Positions 28,778 through 36,435 of a DNA stretch of 49,478 nucleotides are shown piece by piece. Position numbers and translations under genes: made by a program. Below the pieces are notes generated by a model, which worked only from the letters and a program-made list of their open reading frames with translations, was not told where the DNA came from and did no database searches. Position 1 is the first letter of the stretch, and every line of letters starts with the position of its first letter. This stretch comes from an uncultured Alphaproteobacteria bacterium (GTDB lineage Bacteria; Pseudomonadota; Alphaproteobacteria; CADEGL01), in contig CADEGL010000019.1 in the NCBI GenBank assembly GCA_902826885.1, positions 7,638 to 57,115 on the forward strand. The letters run 5' to 3'.

Positions 28778-29248
28778 CCAACAGCCAGCGCCCGTCTGCC
28801 ACTGCCGCGACCTGCCGGTTTCCGCCCGGCGGGTCGTCACATTTCGGCAACGGCTCATGATACCGTGGTTATGTTATTAAGAATGAGTTGCATTGACCGG
28901 ACATCATTCTTATAAGCCAATGGGTTCGCGGGGTGCGTGGCAGGGGTGCCACGGTCCAGCGGCGGGGGGCGAAGGGGAAAGCCACGATGCGCGCATCGAC
29001 GGCCATACCGCGTCCGGAACGGATTCGTTCTGCCCCACGCCGGCGGAAACATCCTCGCGCGAATACGAGGACCATGCCGACGTCCGCGGCGGACGACACC
29101 GCCGAATCACATCCGTTCCGAGTGCCGCGTCCGATCTCGCATGCGCGGCACCATGCCACCAAGCCAGCCCCTTTCCGGCGCACGCCCAGGGGAGCCAGCC
29201 AGGTCCCAATGACGCGAGACCTGATGGCTCTCAGAAAAAGGTGTGCCC
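28778..29248. other. Long gap before the siderophore receptor: no convincing gene
   Basis: This 471-bp interval has several open frames on both strands, but all give Arg/Pro/His/Ala-rich products typical of non-coding high-GC sequence, and none resembles a family I know. It contains the Fur-like site near 28880. If transcription starts there, the receptor mRNA has a leader of about 350 nt, unusually long for this gene class. Confidence 0.5.
28872..28892 (+). promoter_or_regulatory. Fur-box-like site upstream of the siderophore receptor
   Basis: The 21-mer ends in AATGAGTTGCA (28882-28892) and matches the best Fur-like site of the window (35883-35903) at 16 of 21 positions. An additional perfect inverted repeat, TAAGAATGA (28878-28886) and TCATTCTTA (28904-28912), overlaps it. 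Iron-dependent repression of the receptor gene is inferred. Confidence 0.55.
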
Positions 29249-31390
29249 ATGCCGACCAATTTCCTCCCTCTTCCCAGCCACCTGCGTTCGCGGCTTCTAA
29301 GCCACGGCGTGGTCGCGGCGGTGACCTTTGGCGCAGCGGCGGCCACGCCCGGTTCCGCCGTGGCGCAACAAGCGCCCACCATGCTGCCGCCGGTTTCCGT
29401 GCAAACGCAGGGGCAGGCCGACGAGGCCTCGCCCTTGAAGCGCACCATGACCAGCCAGTCCAAATACGGCGGCGAGATCATGGACACCCCACAGTCCATC
29501 ACCGTCGTCACCGAAGAGTTGATGGACGAACAGCACGTCACCCGCATGCGTGACGCGTTGCGCAACGTGCCGGGTATCTCGCTGGGCTCGGGCGAAGGCG
29601 GTCCGCAAGGCGACAATATTTTCCTGCGCGGCTTCTCGACGCGCGGCGACATGTACCTGGACGGCGTGCGCGACTTCGGCAGCTACAACCGCGACACCTT
29701 CGCGCTGCAGTCGGTCGAGGTGTTGAAGGGCGCATCGTCGACGATCTTCGGACGCGGCTCGACCGGCGGCGTCATCAACAACGTCTCCAAGGAGCCGTTG
29801 GCGCAGAACCTGAACGAGGTCGACGTCTCCGGCGGCACCCAGCCCTCGGGCCGCGGCACCGGCGACTTCAACTATGTCTTCAATGAGACGACGGCCCTGC
29901 GCTTCAACGCGATGGCCGAGTATTCGGAAACAACCGACCGCGACTACGTGAACAGCCAGCGCTGGGGCATCTTCCCGACGTTGACCTTCGGCATGAACAC
30001 GGATCTCGAGGTCAACTTCAACTATCTGCACCAGGCGGAAAACAACATCCCCGACCTGGGTATCCCGTTCTATTTCGGGTCACCCGCACCGGTCGGCCGT
30101 CAGACCTTCTACGGCTACGCCGATTTCGACTATGAAAAGACGTATGTCGACGTCGTCACCAACCGCGTCAAGTGGAACATCGATTCGGCGGTCACGCTGA
30201 CCAACACGCTGCGCTACGGCAACGAAAGCCGCTCGCAGTCGCCGACCGCACCACGCATTCCCGCCGGCGTTACCATCAACACGCCGCAGTCCGCGGTCAC
30301 CGTCACGCGCAGTAAGCCAACCAGCGACCGCGACTATCAGAACGTCACGGACCAATCGGACTTCCTGGTGACCGCCAAGACCTGGGATATCGGCCACACA
30401 ATCAACACCGGTATCGAGCTGTCGTGGGAGACGTTCGATCAGACCAACTTCAACATCAACAACAACCCCAACGCGAACTTTCTCTTCCCCAATACCTACC
30501 AGGCGACGCCGCAGAAAGGCGCCGTCAGCAGCTCGTCCACGACCAACACCAACTCCCAAGCGTATTACATCCAAGACAAGGTCGCCGTGACCGATTGGCT
30601 GGACCTGCTGGGCGGCTTTCGCATCGACCGCTTTTCGGCGCAGTTCCGCAACAACGTGAACAGCGGCAACCTGAACAGCGTCGATCGCATCCCGAGCGGC
30701 CGCGCCGCCGCCATCGTCAAGCCGACCGAGGAGCAGAGCTACTACTTCAACTGGGGCACATCGGCGAACCCGTCGGCCGAGAACTTCACGCTCGCCAACA
30801 ACACGGCCGCGGTGAACCCGGAGACCAGCGAGATCTACGAAATCGGCGCCAAGTACGATTTGTTCGAGAAGACGCTGGGCATCCAAGCCGCGATCTACAA
30901 GCTGGAGAAAACCAACACCCGTATTCCCGACCCGACCGGCTCGTTCTTCGTCCTCGACGGACGCCAATGGGTGCAGGGCGGCGAGTTGAGCGTGGTCGGC
31001 AAGATCACGGACAAGTGGGAAACCATGTCCGGCCTGTCGGTGATGTCGTCGGACAACTCATCGACCACGCCGTCCAACAACGGCAAGGAGCTGCCCAACA
31101 CGCCGAACCTGACGTGGAATATCTGGACGACCTACGACGTCATCAAGAATCTCGAGGTCGGCGGCGGCCTCTTCTATGTCGGCGAGTACTACGCCGACGC
31201 GGCCAACCAGAACCAGATCCCGGCCTATTACCGCATCGACCTGATGTCGTCCTACAAGATCGACGAACGGTTCGGCCTGCAGGTGAACCTCCAGAACCTG
31301 CTCGACAAGCGCTACTACGAAGGCAGTGGCGGCAACGTGCTGCCTGGCGCCGGACGCACCGCCATCTTTACTGGGACGTACAAGTTCTAA
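29249..31390 (+). CDS. TonB-dependent siderophore receptor (Fiu/FhuE-like)
   Basis: A 713-residue outer-membrane receptor for ferric siderophores. The signal peptide is followed by a plug domain with DTPQSITVVTEELMDEQ, MRDALRNVPGISLGSGEGG, NIFLRGFSTRGDMYLDGVRD and VEVLKGASSTIFGRGSTGG, and then by the 22-strand barrel ending AIFTGTYKF. The plug pattern and the neighbouring piuC are typical of catecholate receptors such as Fiu/PiuA. The ATG at 29249 is favoured over a GTG two codons earlier because AAAAGG lies at proper distance. It is energised by the ExbB-ExbD-TonB complex encoded downstream. A strong hairpin separates it from piuC. Confidence 0.93.
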   Translation: MPTNFLPLPSHLRSRLLSHGVVAAVTFGAAAATPGSAVAQQAPTMLPPVSVQTQGQADEASPLKRTMTSQSKYGGEIMDTPQSITVVTEELMDEQHVTRMRDALRNVPGISLGSGEGGPQGDNIFLRGFSTRGDMYLDGVRDFGSYNRDTFALQSVEVLKGASSTIFGRGSTGGVINNVSKEPLAQNLNEVDVSGGTQPSGRGTGDFNYVFNETTALRFNAMAEYSETTDRDYVNSQRWGIFPTLTFGMNTDLEVNFNYLHQAENNIPDLGIPFYFGSPAPVGRQTFYGYADFDYEKTYVDVVTNRVKWNIDSAVTLTNTLRYGNESRSQSPTAPRIPAGVTINTPQSAVTVTRSKPTSDRDYQNVTDQSDFLVTAKTWDIGHTINTGIELSWETFDQTNFNINNNPNANFLFPNTYQATPQKGAVSSSSTTNTNSQAYYIQDKVAVTDWLDLLGGFRIDRFSAQFRNNVNSGNLNSVDRIPSGRAAAIVKPTEEQSYYFNWGTSANPSAENFTLANNTAAVNPETSEIYEIGAKYDLFEKTLGIQAAIYKLEKTNTRIPDPTGSFFVLDGRQWVQGGELSVVGKITDKWETMSGLSVMSSDNSSTTPSNNGKELPNTPNLTWNIWTTYDVIKNLEVGGGLFYVGEYYADAANQNQIPAYYRIDLMSSYKIDERFGLQVNLQNLLDKRYYEGSGGNVLPGAGRTAIFTGTYKF

Positions 31391-31460: not shown

Positions 31461-32144
31461 GTGCTCGTTCAAGTTCCGAATGTCCTGACGCCCGACGAGG
31501 TGGCGAAATGCCGCGCACTGATGGAACGCGCGGCCTGGGATGACGGCAAGCTCACCGCGGGCGACCAGTCCGCGGTGGTGAAGGACAACCAGCAAGTCCG
31601 CTACGGCACGCCGGAGCAAAAGGAGCTGGTGGAATTGGTCCTGATGGCCTTGGGGCGCAATCCCCTGTTCATCACCGCTTCGCTGCCGCTCAAGATCTTT
31701 CCGCCGATGTTCAGCCGCTACCACCCCGGCCAGTCCTTCGGCACCCATGTGGACAACGCCATCCGCAATGTTCCCAACACGCCGCATCGCGTCCGCACGG
31801 ACGTGTCCGCCACGCTCTTTCTGGCCGCGCCGGAGGAGTATGACGGCGGTGAGTTGGTGGTCGAGGACGTCTATGCCGCCCAACGGGTCAAGCTGCCGTC
31901 AGGCCACCTGATCCTCTATCCCACATCCAGCGTGCATCACGTGCGTGCCGTCACGCGCGGCACACGGCTGGCCGCCGTGTTCTGGGTGCAAAGCATGGTG
32001 CGCGACGACGGCCAGCGAACCATCCTGTTCGACCTCGACACCGCGATTCGGAATCTTCGCTCATCCAGCGCCGACCAAAACCCTTCGGTCGTCCAGCTGA
32101 CCGCGATCTATCACAACCTGCTCCGCCGCTGGGCGGACGCCTGA
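31461..32144 (+). CDS. piuC: Fe(II)/2-oxoglutarate dioxygenase, PKHD type
   Basis: A 227-residue cytoplasmic PiuC/YbiX-type hydroxylase. The 2-His-1-Asp iron site is H96-x-D98 (FGTHVDNA) and the distal His at 159 or 160 (SSVHHVRAVTRG), with R169 likely to bind 2-oxoglutarate. PiuC genes regularly accompany catecholate siderophore receptors, and this one follows such a receptor by 70 nt. The substrate of the family is not established. It starts with GTG; AGGAG lies about 12 nt upstream, slightly far. The exbB gene begins 32 nt after its stop. Confidence 0.93.
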   Translation: MLVQVPNVLTPDEVAKCRALMERAAWDDGKLTAGDQSAVVKDNQQVRYGTPEQKELVELVLMALGRNPLFITASLPLKIFPPMFSRYHPGQSFGTHVDNAIRNVPNTPHRVRTDVSATLFLAAPEEYDGGELVVEDVYAAQRVKLPSGHLILYPTSSVHHVRAVTRGTRLAAVFWVQSMVRDDGQRTILFDLDTAIRNLRSSSADQNPSVVQLTAIYHNLLRRWADA

Positions 32145-32176
32145 CCCCAATGATCTGTATTCGACGGAGGACTACC

Positions 32177-33022
32177 GTGTTGAATCGTCCCATCGCGACC
32201 GCAGCCGCCGGCGCCCTCTTCGCGCTTGTCTCGCCGGTCCTCGCCGCCGACACGGCGCCTCCCGCGCCGGGCACCGGCACCGGTGCCATGCCGCTCGATC
32301 CGGCGACCCCACTCAACACGGCGCCTGGCGTCCTGCCGCAAGACCTGTCGGTCTGGGGCATGTTCACGACGGCCGATATCATCGTCCAGGCCGTCATGGT
32401 GGGGCTCCTCATCGCCTCGGTCATTACCTGGACAGTCTGGTTGTCGAAGAATTTGGAGCTGCACAAAGCGCGCAAACGCGCGCTCTTGGCGCTCACCGAG
32501 GTCAGCCAATCGCGAACCTTGGCCGAAGCCGCCCAGCGCGTGGCCGACCACGACGGCCCGACCGCGACGTTGATCGTTGCCGCGCAGACCGAGTTGGCGG
32601 AATCCATGGAAGATCCGCCGGAAAGCGTGAAGGAACGCGCGGCGTGGCACTTGGAGCGGATCGAGGCCGCCGCCGGCCGGCGCATCGCGAAGGGCACCGG
32701 CATCCTGGCCACGATCGGCGCGACCGCCCCCTTCGTCGGCCTGTTCGGCACGGTGTGGGGCATCATGAACAGCTTCATCGGTATCGCGAAGTCTCAGACC
32801 ACAAACCTGGCCGTCGTGGCGCCCGGCATCGCCGAGGCGCTTTTGGCGACCGCGCTGGGTCTGGTCGCGGCAATTCCCGCGGTTGTGATCTACAACCACT
32901 TCTCGCGTTCGATCTCGGGCTACCGCCACCAGCTGGGCGACGCCTCGGCCGTGGTGCTGCGCCTGCTCTCGCGCGACCTCGACCGCCGCCAGGCCCCGCG
33001 CCTCACCAAGGCGGCGGAGTAG
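32177..33022 (+). CDS. exbB: TonB-system energiser ExbB
   Basis: A 281-residue inner-membrane proton channel subunit. A cleavable N-terminal signal (MLNRPIATAAAGALFALVSP) and a Pro/Ala-rich periplasmic extension precede the first membrane helix (AVMVGLLIASVITWTVWL). The long cytoplasmic domain follows, then two helices around GILATIGATAPFVGLFGTVWGIMN and EALLATALGLVAAIPAVVIYN, whose Thr/Ala/Gly residues line the pore. The GTG at 32177 is chosen because GGAGG precedes it at 7 nt; it leaves a normal signal sequence, unlike the ATG at 32150. It forms an operon with exbD (4-nt gap) and tonB. Confidence 0.95.
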   Translation: MLNRPIATAAAGALFALVSPVLAADTAPPAPGTGTGAMPLDPATPLNTAPGVLPQDLSVWGMFTTADIIVQAVMVGLLIASVITWTVWLSKNLELHKARKRALLALTEVSQSRTLAEAAQRVADHDGPTATLIVAAQTELAESMEDPPESVKERAAWHLERIEAAAGRRIAKGTGILATIGATAPFVGLFGTVWGIMNSFIGIAKSQTTNLAVVAPGIAEALLATALGLVAAIPAVVIYNHFSRSISGYRHQLGDASAVVLRLLSRDLDRRQAPRLTKAAE

Positions 33023-33026
33023 CGCC

Positions 33027-33449
33027 ATGGCGGTTCGCCTCGACCACGGAAAGGACGAGCTGGAGGAGACTCACGAGATCAACGTGACGCCCTTTATCGA
33101 CGTCATGCTGGTTCTCCTGATCATTTTCATGATCGCAGCGCCCTTAGCGACGGTAGACATACCTGTCGATCTGCCGACGGCCAGCGCCCAACGCCAGCCG
33201 CGTCCGGACAAGCCGCTGTTCCTCACGCTCAAGTCCGATCTGTCCCTCGTCGTGGGCGAGCAGCAGGTGGCGAACCGGGAATCGCTGGGTGCCGCGCTCG
33301 ATGCGGCGACGGCGGGCGACAAGGAAAAGCGGGTCTTCCTGCGCGCCGACAAGACGGTCGAGTACGGCGAGCTGATGGAAGTGATGAACAGCATGCGCAA
33401 CGCCGGTTATCTGAAAGTCGCGCTGGTCGGCCTGGAACAAGGACAATAG
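33027..33449 (+). CDS. exbD: TonB-system component ExbD
   Basis: A 140-residue inner-membrane protein with one N-terminal helix. It carries the essential proton-binding Asp at residue 25 in INVTPFIDVMLVLLIIFMI, followed by the periplasmic peptidoglycan/TonB-interaction domain ending near residue 135. Together with ExbB it harvests the proton gradient and transmits it to TonB. It begins 4 nt after exbB and ends 1 nt before the tonB start, so the three are clearly one operon. Family length and motif are normal. Confidence 0.96.
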   Translation: MAVRLDHGKDELEETHEINVTPFIDVMLVLLIIFMIAAPLATVDIPVDLPTASAQRQPRPDKPLFLTLKSDLSLVVGEQQVANRESLGAALDAATAGDKEKRVFLRADKTVEYGELMEVMNSMRNAGYLKVALVGLEQGQ

Positions 33450-33450
33450 C

Positions 33451-34143
33451 GTGTCGAGCGCGGCGCTCCTTCTTCACCACGACGACCACCGGGAAAAGCA
33501 CCGCTGGAGCGGTTGCTTCGCGGCCATTGTCGGCGTCCACGTGGCCGCCGCGCTTCTGTTCGTCGCCTGGAAGAACCTGGTGCCGCCGCCAGAGCCGACG
33601 CCGTCCGCGATCCTGATCGACATGGCGCCTCTGCCCGCGCCCAAGCCGGTTCCGCCGCCGCCCGCGCCCAAGATCAAACCGCCAGAGCCTAAGCCGGTGC
33701 AGAAGCCCGTCCGGAAGCCGGTGCTGCTCAAGGAAGAGTTGCCGGTCGCCCCCTCCGACGCCGAGTTGGAGGCGGCGCCGAAGCCGGCGCCGCCGGTGCA
33801 GGCCGCCCCCGCCGCCACGACGACGCCGACGCCCGCGCCCGCCGTGTCGGCAGCCGCCAAGGCCAGCTACGAAGCGCTGCTGATCGCGCATTTGGACAAG
33901 CACAAGCGTTACCCGCCGGAGGCGCGCATGCGCCGGCATCAGGGCACGGCCTACATCCAGTTCACGATGGACCGTCAGGGCAAGGTGCTGACCTACAAGC
34001 TGTACCGCAGTTCAAGCATCCAATCCTTGGACGACGAGGTCCTGGCTCTGATCGTGCGCGCGCAGCCGCTGCCGCCCATTCCGGCGGACCGGCCGGAGAG
34101 CACGCTCGAGTTCGTGGTGCCGGTTCAGTTCAGCCTGCGATAG
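33451..34143 (+). CDS. tonB: TonB energy transducer
   Basis: A 230-residue protein with a short cytoplasmic N-terminus, one membrane helix (FAAIVGVHVAAALLFVAW, with the conserved His) and a long periplasmic Pro/Lys/Ala linker (KPVPPPPAPKIKPPEPKP...). The C-terminal TonB domain is at about 145-230 (HLDKHKRYPPEARMRRHQG ... LYRSSSIQSLDDEVLALI), which touches the TonB box of outer-membrane receptors. It starts with GTG directly behind exbD. The stop codon lies inside a perfect 24-bp palindrome shared with the convergent receptor-plug fragment. Gene and role are certain; the served receptor is presumably the one at 29249. Confidence 0.95.
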   Translation: MSSAALLLHHDDHREKHRWSGCFAAIVGVHVAAALLFVAWKNLVPPPEPTPSAILIDMAPLPAPKPVPPPPAPKIKPPEPKPVQKPVRKPVLLKEELPVAPSDAELEAAPKPAPPVQAAPAATTTPTPAPAVSAAAKASYEALLIAHLDKHKRYPPEARMRRHQGTAYIQFTMDRQGKVLTYKLYRSSSIQSLDDEVLALIVRAQPLPPIPADRPESTLEFVVPVQFSLR

Positions 34144-34160
34144 GCGCCGGCGCCTATCGC
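34137..34160. terminator. Perfect 24-bp palindrome spanning two convergent stop codons
   Basis: 34137-34148 is the exact reverse complement of 34149-34160. The tonB stop (34141-34143) and the stop of the opposite-strand plug fragment (34154-34156) sit symmetrically in the two arms. Without loop or T-run it is not a standard terminator; it may still end both transcripts as a hairpin with a collapsed centre, or be a protein-binding site. Confidence 0.5.
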
Positions 34161-34453
34161 CCGACCGCCAAGACTCCCGGCACCACGCGCAGGGCCGATG
34201 TCACGGAGGTGGCGTGGCGCTGGTCCATGTTGGTCTTGGTCACCGTGATGGCGCCCGGCAGTTCATCCGCGCCGTCGCGGCCGATCTGGGAGGAGTTGCT
34301 GTCCACCATGCCGAGGCCGCGCGACTGCACACCATAGGCGACCGATGGGCTCGCATGGCTGCGCACAGCGCCCATGCCGTCCTCGGCCAGCGCGGCGAGC
34401 GGTGAGCCCGCGACGAACAATGCGGCTAGGAAAGAAGCGAGACGTACGTTCAT
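34154..34453 (-). CDS. Exported fragment of a TonB-dependent receptor (signal peptide plus start of plug)
   Basis: A 99-residue product starting MNVRLASFLAALFVAGSP with a signal peptide ending near ALAE. Its second half, LPGAITVTKTNMDQRH and SALRVVPGVLAVG, aligns with the plug of the siderophore receptor at 29249 (TPQSITVVTEELMDEQH, DALRNVPGISLG): shared P, ITV, T, MD, H, T, ALR and VPG. Translation stops where the real plug continues, so there is no barrel. It is either the 5' remnant of a lost receptor or a small stand-alone plug-like protein. The ATG at 34453 begins the signal sequence; its ribosome binding site is weak. It converges on tonB with a 10-bp gap. Confidence 0.6.
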   Translation of the reverse strand: MNVRLASFLAALFVAGSPLAALAEDGMGAVRSHASPSVAYGVQSRGLGMVDSNSSQIGRDGADELPGAITVTKTNMDQRHATSVTSALRVVPGVLAVGR

Positions 34454-34608
34454 GACGGGGCGATCCAACAATCGAGGCATCCGGCTGGCGCCTTCGTTCC
34501 CCGGGACCGAAGAGCTGGCTTTCAAGGCCGATTATCGGACAAGGCCGTCATGCGGCAAAGGGGCCTCGCCGGGGGAGGCTGAAACACTTGCCCTGTGCCT
34601 CACGCGGT

Positions 34609-34629
34609 GTTAAATGAGAATTAGTTGCA
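34609..34629 (+). promoter_or_regulatory. Fur-box-like site upstream of hemP
   Basis: The 21-mer contains AAATGAGAA and ends in AATTAGTTGCA (34619-34629), identical in its last 11 bases to the site at 35893-35903. It matches that site at 16 of 21 positions. It lies about 50 bp before the probable hemP start, the usual place for iron repression by Fur. Confidence 0.6.
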
Positions 34630-34675
34630 TTTGCATGTCTCGGCGACGCGCCCGTGCCGAGCAGCCGAAAACAGG

Positions 34676-34879
34676 GTGGGGGAATTGACGAAGGAAGACG
34701 GCCTCGCGCGTCTGAGTGATCATGGCGGCGTGTCCAAGCCGGCCGGACAGGCCCGGACGATTCGCCGGACCACCACCGACGATCTGCTGCAAGGCGGCAA
34801 CGAACTGATCATCGCCCATCGGGGCGAGGAATACCGCCTGCGCATCACTAGCAACGGCAAGCTAATCTTGAACAAATAG
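34676..34879 (+). CDS. hemP: Hemin uptake protein HemP family
   Basis: A small cytoplasmic protein of about 67 residues. The conserved HemP core lies at the C-terminus: [20 protein letters not shown] followed by [18 protein letters not shown], very close to the family pattern with its final GKLIL-K. HemP proteins are strongly iron-regulated and in some alphaproteobacteria act as activators of haem-receptor expression rather than as transport parts. No bhuR/hmuR haem receptor is in the window. The start is uncertain: GTG at 34676 or TTG at 34685 are in frame, and neither has a standard Shine-Dalgarno. A Fur-like site is 47 bp upstream. Confidence 0.88.
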
Positions 34880-35882: not shown

Positions 35883-35903
35883 TGCAATTGATAATTAGTT
35901 GCA
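35883..35903 (+). promoter_or_regulatory. Fur-box-like palindrome at the start of the unknown gene
   Basis: This 21-bp site begins TGCAATTGA and ends AATTAGTTGCA; 16 of 21 positions agree with its reverse complement, with TGCAA/TTGCA arms typical of Fur-family boxes. It is the best of three related sites. It ends 1 bp before the ATG at 35905, so it must overlap the promoter or start of transcription. Confidence 0.65.
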
Positions 35904-35904
35904 A

Positions 35905-36435
35905 ATGGATCGTCTCAGCACGCTGGAACTACCCGTCCCGGTCAACGACGACAGGCCGGACGCCCCCGGCGCCGCCGCTTTGTCGGCCTGCTCGGTTTCG
36001 GATCTCGACTTTTCCGAACAGCTCGTCATCTGGGCTATGCGGCGCTGGCTGCACGAGCGCGTGGAGACCGGGGAGCAGCCGGGCCTGTCGCTCAGCCATT
36101 GCATCGAGGAGCCCCTGATCACCGCTTGCGGCAGCGAACAAGGCGAGCGGGCGGCTGTGGGCATCGCCGCCTTCATGACGCTCCTCTGCGCGTCATCCCG
36201 CCAAGCGCGCCGCCTCCATCGGCTGGAATGCACGGGCGTCAGCGTCGACGAATGCCTGTTTCTCTCGATCATCGCGGCGCTGCAGGCCGGCGACCGGTTC
36301 CTGGCGCATGGCCGCCTAGTCTGGCTGATGCCCGCGCCCGTGGCCGCCATCGCCGAGCGGAACCTGCAGATGGCGGCCGACGCGCTGACCGCCGGCGGCC
36401 GCCATCTGCCGCAACGTGCCGCCGGGCACGCGTAA
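35905..36435 (+). CDS. Hypothetical protein, probably iron-regulated
   Basis: A 176-residue protein without signal peptide that I do not recognise. It seems mostly alpha-helical, with a helix LDFSEQLVIWAMRRWLHER, several cysteines (SHC, LITAC, LLCAS, LEC, DEC) and a C-terminal alanine-rich helix (VAAIAERNLQMAADALTAGG). The strongest Fur-like site of the window touches its ATG and no Shine-Dalgarno is visible, so the mRNA may be leaderless or translation may begin further in (for example the in-frame ATG at 36037). Position at the edge of the siderophore/HemP locus and the shared site suggest a role in iron response. Function unknown. Confidence 0.75.
   Translation: MDRLSTLELPVPVNDDRPDAPGAAALSACSVSDLDFSEQLVIWAMRRWLHERVETGEQPGLSLSHCIEEPLITACGSEQGERAAVGIAAFMTLLCASSRQARRLHRLECTGVSVDECLFLSIIAALQAGDRFLAHGRLVWLMPAPVAAIAERNLQMAADALTAGGRHLPQRAAGHA

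Follow-up and report, generated by a model that had tools for sequence, protein, structure and literature searches.

The window, a stretch of 49,478 nucleotides that forms part of contig C19 (source genome 3.87 Mb, 134 contigs), contains a Ton locus with the gene order receptor, PKHD hydroxylase, exbB, exbD, tonB, small gene, hemP, tRNA, and lipoyl ligase (lipB). On the plus strand, the full-length TonB-dependent receptor (29243–31390; Plug E = 2e-25, barrel E = 2e-39) is followed by the gene of a PKHD-type (PiuC-like) hydroxylase (31461–32144; PF18331, E = 3e-20), exbB (32150–33022; PF01618, E = 6e-32), exbD (33027–33449; PF02472, E = 9e-31), and tonB (33451–34143; PF03544 (TonB_C), E = 3e-13). 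The small gene lies on the minus strand at 34154–34453, consists of 99 codons and ends with TAG; translation and coordinates confirmed both the 99-residue frame and its convergence with tonB, as proposed in an earlier, sequence-only reading of this DNA. Between its end and the stop codon of tonB, which runs on the other strand, lie 10 bases. On its other side, the divergent neighbour is hemP (34685–34879, plus strand; PF10636, E = 4e-17), the start codon of which is uncertain.

The N-terminus of the small protein is MNVRLASFLAALFVAGSPLAALA, followed after the likely cleavage site by ED. By inspection, residues 1–23 (34385–34453, minus strand) form a putative signal peptide of the textbook Sec type, cut after ALA, which leaves a mature protein of 76 residues; the whole sequence contains no cysteine. 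The mature part can be divided into residues 24–63 (34265–34384, minus strand), conserved in a congener (genome G001) and in alignments and shuffles without demonstrable similarity to receptors, and a plug-like stretch, residues 64–95 (34169–34264, minus strand), assigned by the Pfam Plug family and by alignment with the receptor, for which a resemblance to thioredoxin competes. No C-terminal beta-barrel is present in the 99 residues, Plug being the sole Pfam match. The AlphaFold2 model of the small protein, made with no alignment, was uninformative (pLDDT 56, pTM 0.19).

A perfect 24-base palindrome, GCGATAGGCGCCGGCGCCTATCGC, at 34137–34160 spans the two convergent stop codons, and since both lie inside it, the small protein and TonB both end with Arg-stop. 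Congener G001 is without this palindrome, and another small inverted repeat is apparently found there (by eye).

Conservation and distribution of the small gene

The orthologue in G001 is identical in 90 of 99 residues, without indels, ends with the same TAG, and has tonB and hemP as neighbours in the same arrangement. The earlier reading advised a search for the same short gene next to tonB in related species; it is present in G001, the sole relative with this locus. The Nei–Gojobori comparison of the two gene copies gave dN 0.058 and dS 0.401, i.e., dN/dS 0.14, and for the flanking genes dN/dS values of 0.10 (exbB), 0.19 (hemP), and 0.13 (lipB); exbD and tonB were left out of this set because of a gap in their alignment. 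The 37 substitutions in the small gene, the coding sequence of which is 88% identical between the two species, are distributed over the three codon positions as 5, 6, and 26. Nine residue changes are seen versus a neutral mean of 24 and minimum of 13, and none of 20,000 simulations gave nine or fewer. A plus-strand frame across the small-gene region is open in G001 and is not open in the window. Judged from these substitution patterns, the small gene is a functional protein-coding gene under purifying selection at the protein level, although the selection is read from one comparison, because only two species were available. The intactness of the frame, noted before, was thereby borne out and extended to selection.

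The sequence-only reading had also considered a decayed receptor, in which the gene would be an N-terminal stub left by truncation, its frame open by chance. Such a truncation would leave exactly a signal peptide and the start of a plug, and the end of the small gene coincides with the end of tonB on the other strand. However, the dN/dS value together with the neutral simulations indicates that the small gene is not a decaying receptor, and indels are absent. The stop codon is shared despite a synonymous divergence of about 0.4 per site; being common to both species, it makes the short form older than their split, and a decaying stub should by now have lost its coding signature. Moreover, the three minus-strand frames downstream of the stop hold no plug remnant, a trace for which the earlier reading had advised a search. 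A full-length receptor at this place in relatives, which that reading regarded as refuting its proposal, was not seen either; this is a thin test, with G001 as the only relative. The decayed-receptor explanation is thus largely refuted and is considered very improbable.

The distribution of the gene is narrow. In 60 relatives searched, two hold it (the window's genome and G001). A search of 385 genomes of the class gave 104 with a match at E ≤ 0.5, mostly by chance, with the gene itself only in the two congeners, and no orthologue outside the genus was found in the genomes searched (385 of the class, 398 of the phylum). None of the other three genomes of the family has this tonB or this hemP (0/3 for each), so there is no outgroup for the ancestral state. 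At 28 loci (L017–L044) no equivalent was found downstream of tonB, the best open reading frame reaching 7.9 bits over residues 19–48, outside the plug-like part. The 80 ExbB loci taken from named genomes include a TonB match in 64 and a hemP match in none, and the small gene was not found among their 6226 open reading frames (best E 0.52). No match was obtained in the genome_contigs, plasmids, and viral_contigs sets, and no stand-alone plug-start gene was found in the titles and abstracts of open-access papers.

Resemblance of the C-terminal stretch to receptor plugs and to thioredoxins

Alignment of the small protein with residues 81–112 of the nearby receptor gives 15 identities in 32 positions with one gap, and the ITV, MD, H, ALR, and VPG identities listed in the earlier reading are all found there; the E value of 5e-6 applies to a single comparison. 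When the mature protein was compared with the receptor by Smith–Waterman, the score was 68, which none of 5000 shuffles reached (maximum 65); the other long frames of the window, used as controls, gave 43 at most. Pfam reports no family but Plug for either orthologue, with E = 0.004 and 18.1 bits for the window protein and E = 0.01 and 16.8 bits for that of G001, both under the curated cut-off of 23.9 bits, and with 33–34 of the 107 profile positions covered. A local plug profile of 19 sequences, from which the gene itself was kept out, gave 18.3 bits, exceeded by none of 19,862 scored shuffles (maximum 14.0). When a profile of the two orthologues was run against the 398 phylum genomes, six of these genomes matched at E ≤ 0.001, one of them the window's own; the matches in the other five are all receptors (Pfam Plug in 5/5, barrel in 4/5), a result to which the many receptors per genome contribute, as this helps receptors to reach the top of such a search. 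The best non-self match in the class set is likewise a receptor (L045). HMA and BON domains, considered for the same motif, were dismissed, as neither appears in the Pfam results at E ≤ 10.

As in the plug of TonB-dependent receptors (PF07715; siderophore type TIGR01783), the small protein shows a counterpart of the first strand and the helix, matched at profile positions 4–36 of 107, with a putative signal peptide before them and a Ton locus around the gene. The plug-like stretch starts 40 residues past the likely cleavage site; in the receptor nearby the distance, counted by eye, is about 39. Putative signal peptide, 40-residue linker, and plug start thus reproduce the layout of that receptor's N-terminus. 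Unlike these receptors, the small protein lacks the rest of the plug, the barrel, and a recognisable TonB box; its first strand is one residue shorter than that of the receptor plug, and its score stays below the Pfam cut-off.

The same stretch also resembles thioredoxin. Residues 60–95 match residues 45–80 of Thioredoxin TrxA (NF006898) about as well as they match the plug, and in NCBIfam TrxA (0.018) ranked above TonB-siderophor (0.14). A PDB profile search returned thioredoxins only (44 sequences, E 0.078–1.8). The local thioredoxin profile gave 20.9 bits, versus 18.3 for the plug, and none of 16,822 scored shuffles was higher (best 10.4), although this score is flattered, as the members of the profile were chosen for resembling the small gene. 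Since the thioredoxin likeness also beats all shuffles, beating shuffles is no proof of homology, and as the gene cannot descend from both of two unrelated folds, the shuffle tests overstate either case. Unlike thioredoxin, the small protein has no cysteine, thus no CXXC active site, and most of the fold is missing; the thioredoxin resemblance is more likely a local coincidence. An apparent family of free plug starts, composed of class-set matches to about residues 60–96 in frames of 98–139 codons, was rejected: two of these short frames (L052, L061) proved on reading to be thioredoxins, and of 12 fetched short-frame loci, among which those two places are included, 9 (L073–L079, L083, L084) contributed a sequence to the local thioredoxin profile. 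Of the earlier description of the gene as a plug start, the match to the receptor stands; it accounts for no more than 32 of the 76 residues of the mature protein, the Pfam evidence is marginal, and thioredoxin fits about equally.

The part that precedes the plug-like stretch is conserved as well, with 4 changes in 40 residues (24–63) versus G001 and 1 change in 21 for residues 43–63, yet it shows no demonstrable similarity to receptors. Its score against the linker of the receptor nearby was reached by 1232 of 2000 shuffles; over 35 linker rows, three of which are the gene itself, the median p was 0.48, and the other rows with a small p are receptors that had been selected beforehand as best matches. 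No convincing TonB box is evident in the small protein; PSVAYG (residues 36–41) sits roughly where one would be expected, in a linker alignment that is at shuffle level. As the first 40 mature residues are conserved and not receptor-like, a plug start leaves roughly half of the mature protein, conserved as it is, unexplained. This conservation, together with the comparable thioredoxin fit to the same residues, is consistent with a lineage-specific orphan periplasmic protein, in which the 32-residue plug match would be a coincidence of a strand–helix–strand pattern. This explanation is a serious one, though it falls well short of an even chance: Plug is the sole Pfam family for both orthologues, all five strong non-self matches in the phylum are receptors, the gene lies within a Ton locus and has the layout of a receptor N-terminus, and the thioredoxin profile was built from sequences picked for likeness to the small gene.

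The small protein might also complete, as one half of a split receptor, a barrel without a plug start of its own. There is a precedent in FhuA, for which a cork and a barrel made separately reportedly assemble. However, no plug-less barrel was found: Pfam detected two barrel genes in the window's genome (G000) and two in G001, and all four have a complete plug, so that a split receptor is extremely improbable. Contig C21 breaks off within a further receptor start (L189, 1585–1920), which is very similar to that of the window receptor; the receptor set of G000 is therefore incomplete, with at least three receptor starts.

Upstream region, origin, and possible role

Upstream of the small gene, a putative promoter, TTGCCG-16-GATAAT (34531–34558, minus strand), has both hexamers identical in G001 and a diverged spacer, with changes at about half of its positions (a count by eye). 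The leader between the −10 element and the ATG (34454–34530, minus strand) is 95% identical to that of G001 over 74 of 77 bases and thereby more conserved between the two species than the coding sequence. A riboswitch or other structured leader was considered and rejected, as Rfam gave no match for the leader and its folding is no better than that of shuffles (z 1.1 and 1.3); beyond short chance matches, no copies of the leader occur elsewhere in either genome. Leader conservation, the short gap to tonB, and the failure to find an intrinsic terminator with a T-run would fit a function of the RNA, in which convergent transcription regulates tonB by antisense or collision and the protein is secondary. 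However, the constraint acts at the protein level, as the substitutions by codon position indicate, and inverted repeats lie between both genes in both species (verified in the window, by eye in G001). A regulatory RNA is thus quite improbable as the main function.

Between the small gene and hemP, a motif, AATGAGAATTAGTTGCATTTGCA (34613–34635, plus strand), is unchanged in G001; we take it to be a Fur-type iron box, a candidate site proposed from sequence. The site lies about 50 bases upstream of the −35 element of the small gene and hence may serve only hemP.

Our preferred interpretation, held as a whole tentatively and at somewhat less than an even chance, starts from a real, selected small gene in an iron-uptake locus, so far restricted to the genus; its product would be periplasmic, perhaps derived from a receptor, and perhaps tuning TonB. 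The separate question of origin leans slightly towards descent from a siderophore receptor of the TonB-dependent type, whose N-terminus would have been kept, and barrel lost, before the two species separated. As for function, it could be proposed by analogy that under iron limitation the small protein is made and exported to the periplasm, where it would stay, largely unfolded, as a mimic of a receptor start. The mimic would contact the C-terminal domain of TonB (or a receptor), and this contact would adjust the amount of TonB available for pulling on genuine receptors. As a convincing TonB box is absent, this competition for TonB is regarded as rather unlikely. The fuller version of the proposal, in which a domesticated plug start acts as a free, iron-regulated periplasmic regulator, a natural decoy competing with receptors for TonB, is doubtful to a greater degree.

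Parallels come from pieces of receptors. According to PMC13253070, the N-terminal region of FusA fused to GFP binds the C-terminal domain of FusB, a TonB homologue, and the isolated FepA plug is described, in a citation within the review PMC11658791, as unfolded and binding ferric enterobactin weakly (Usher 2001). These pieces show that the N-terminus of a receptor, even with the barrel missing, is able to bind a TonB homologue or, weakly, a ligand; they are laboratory constructs with a TonB-box-like segment or a whole plug. Unlike them, the small gene is natural and is without an evident TonB box. A periplasmic role independent of TonB, e.g., that of a small hemP-linked accessory for iron or haem, has about the same probability as the tuning of TonB. 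To our knowledge, the rationing of a limited TonB pool among receptors is an open question. A free receptor start kept by natural selection next to tonB would offer direct genetic access to this rationing; should the gene prove unrelated to receptors, it would be one more orphan small protein in an iron locus, of an ordinary kind.

The core of the Fur-box-like motif, with one mismatch allowed, is found at four places in the genome, versus none for the reversed control: at 34613–34635, at 35889 in the window, before an imelysin gene, and before the receptor start at the end of C21. The second copy in the window (35889–35903) is located at the start of a 178-codon open reading frame (35899–36435), for which Pfam gives nothing at E ≤ 0.01. 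The imelysin (Peptidase_M75) gene (L190, 1583–2857; E = 1e-90) stands directly behind its one-mismatch copy of the motif.
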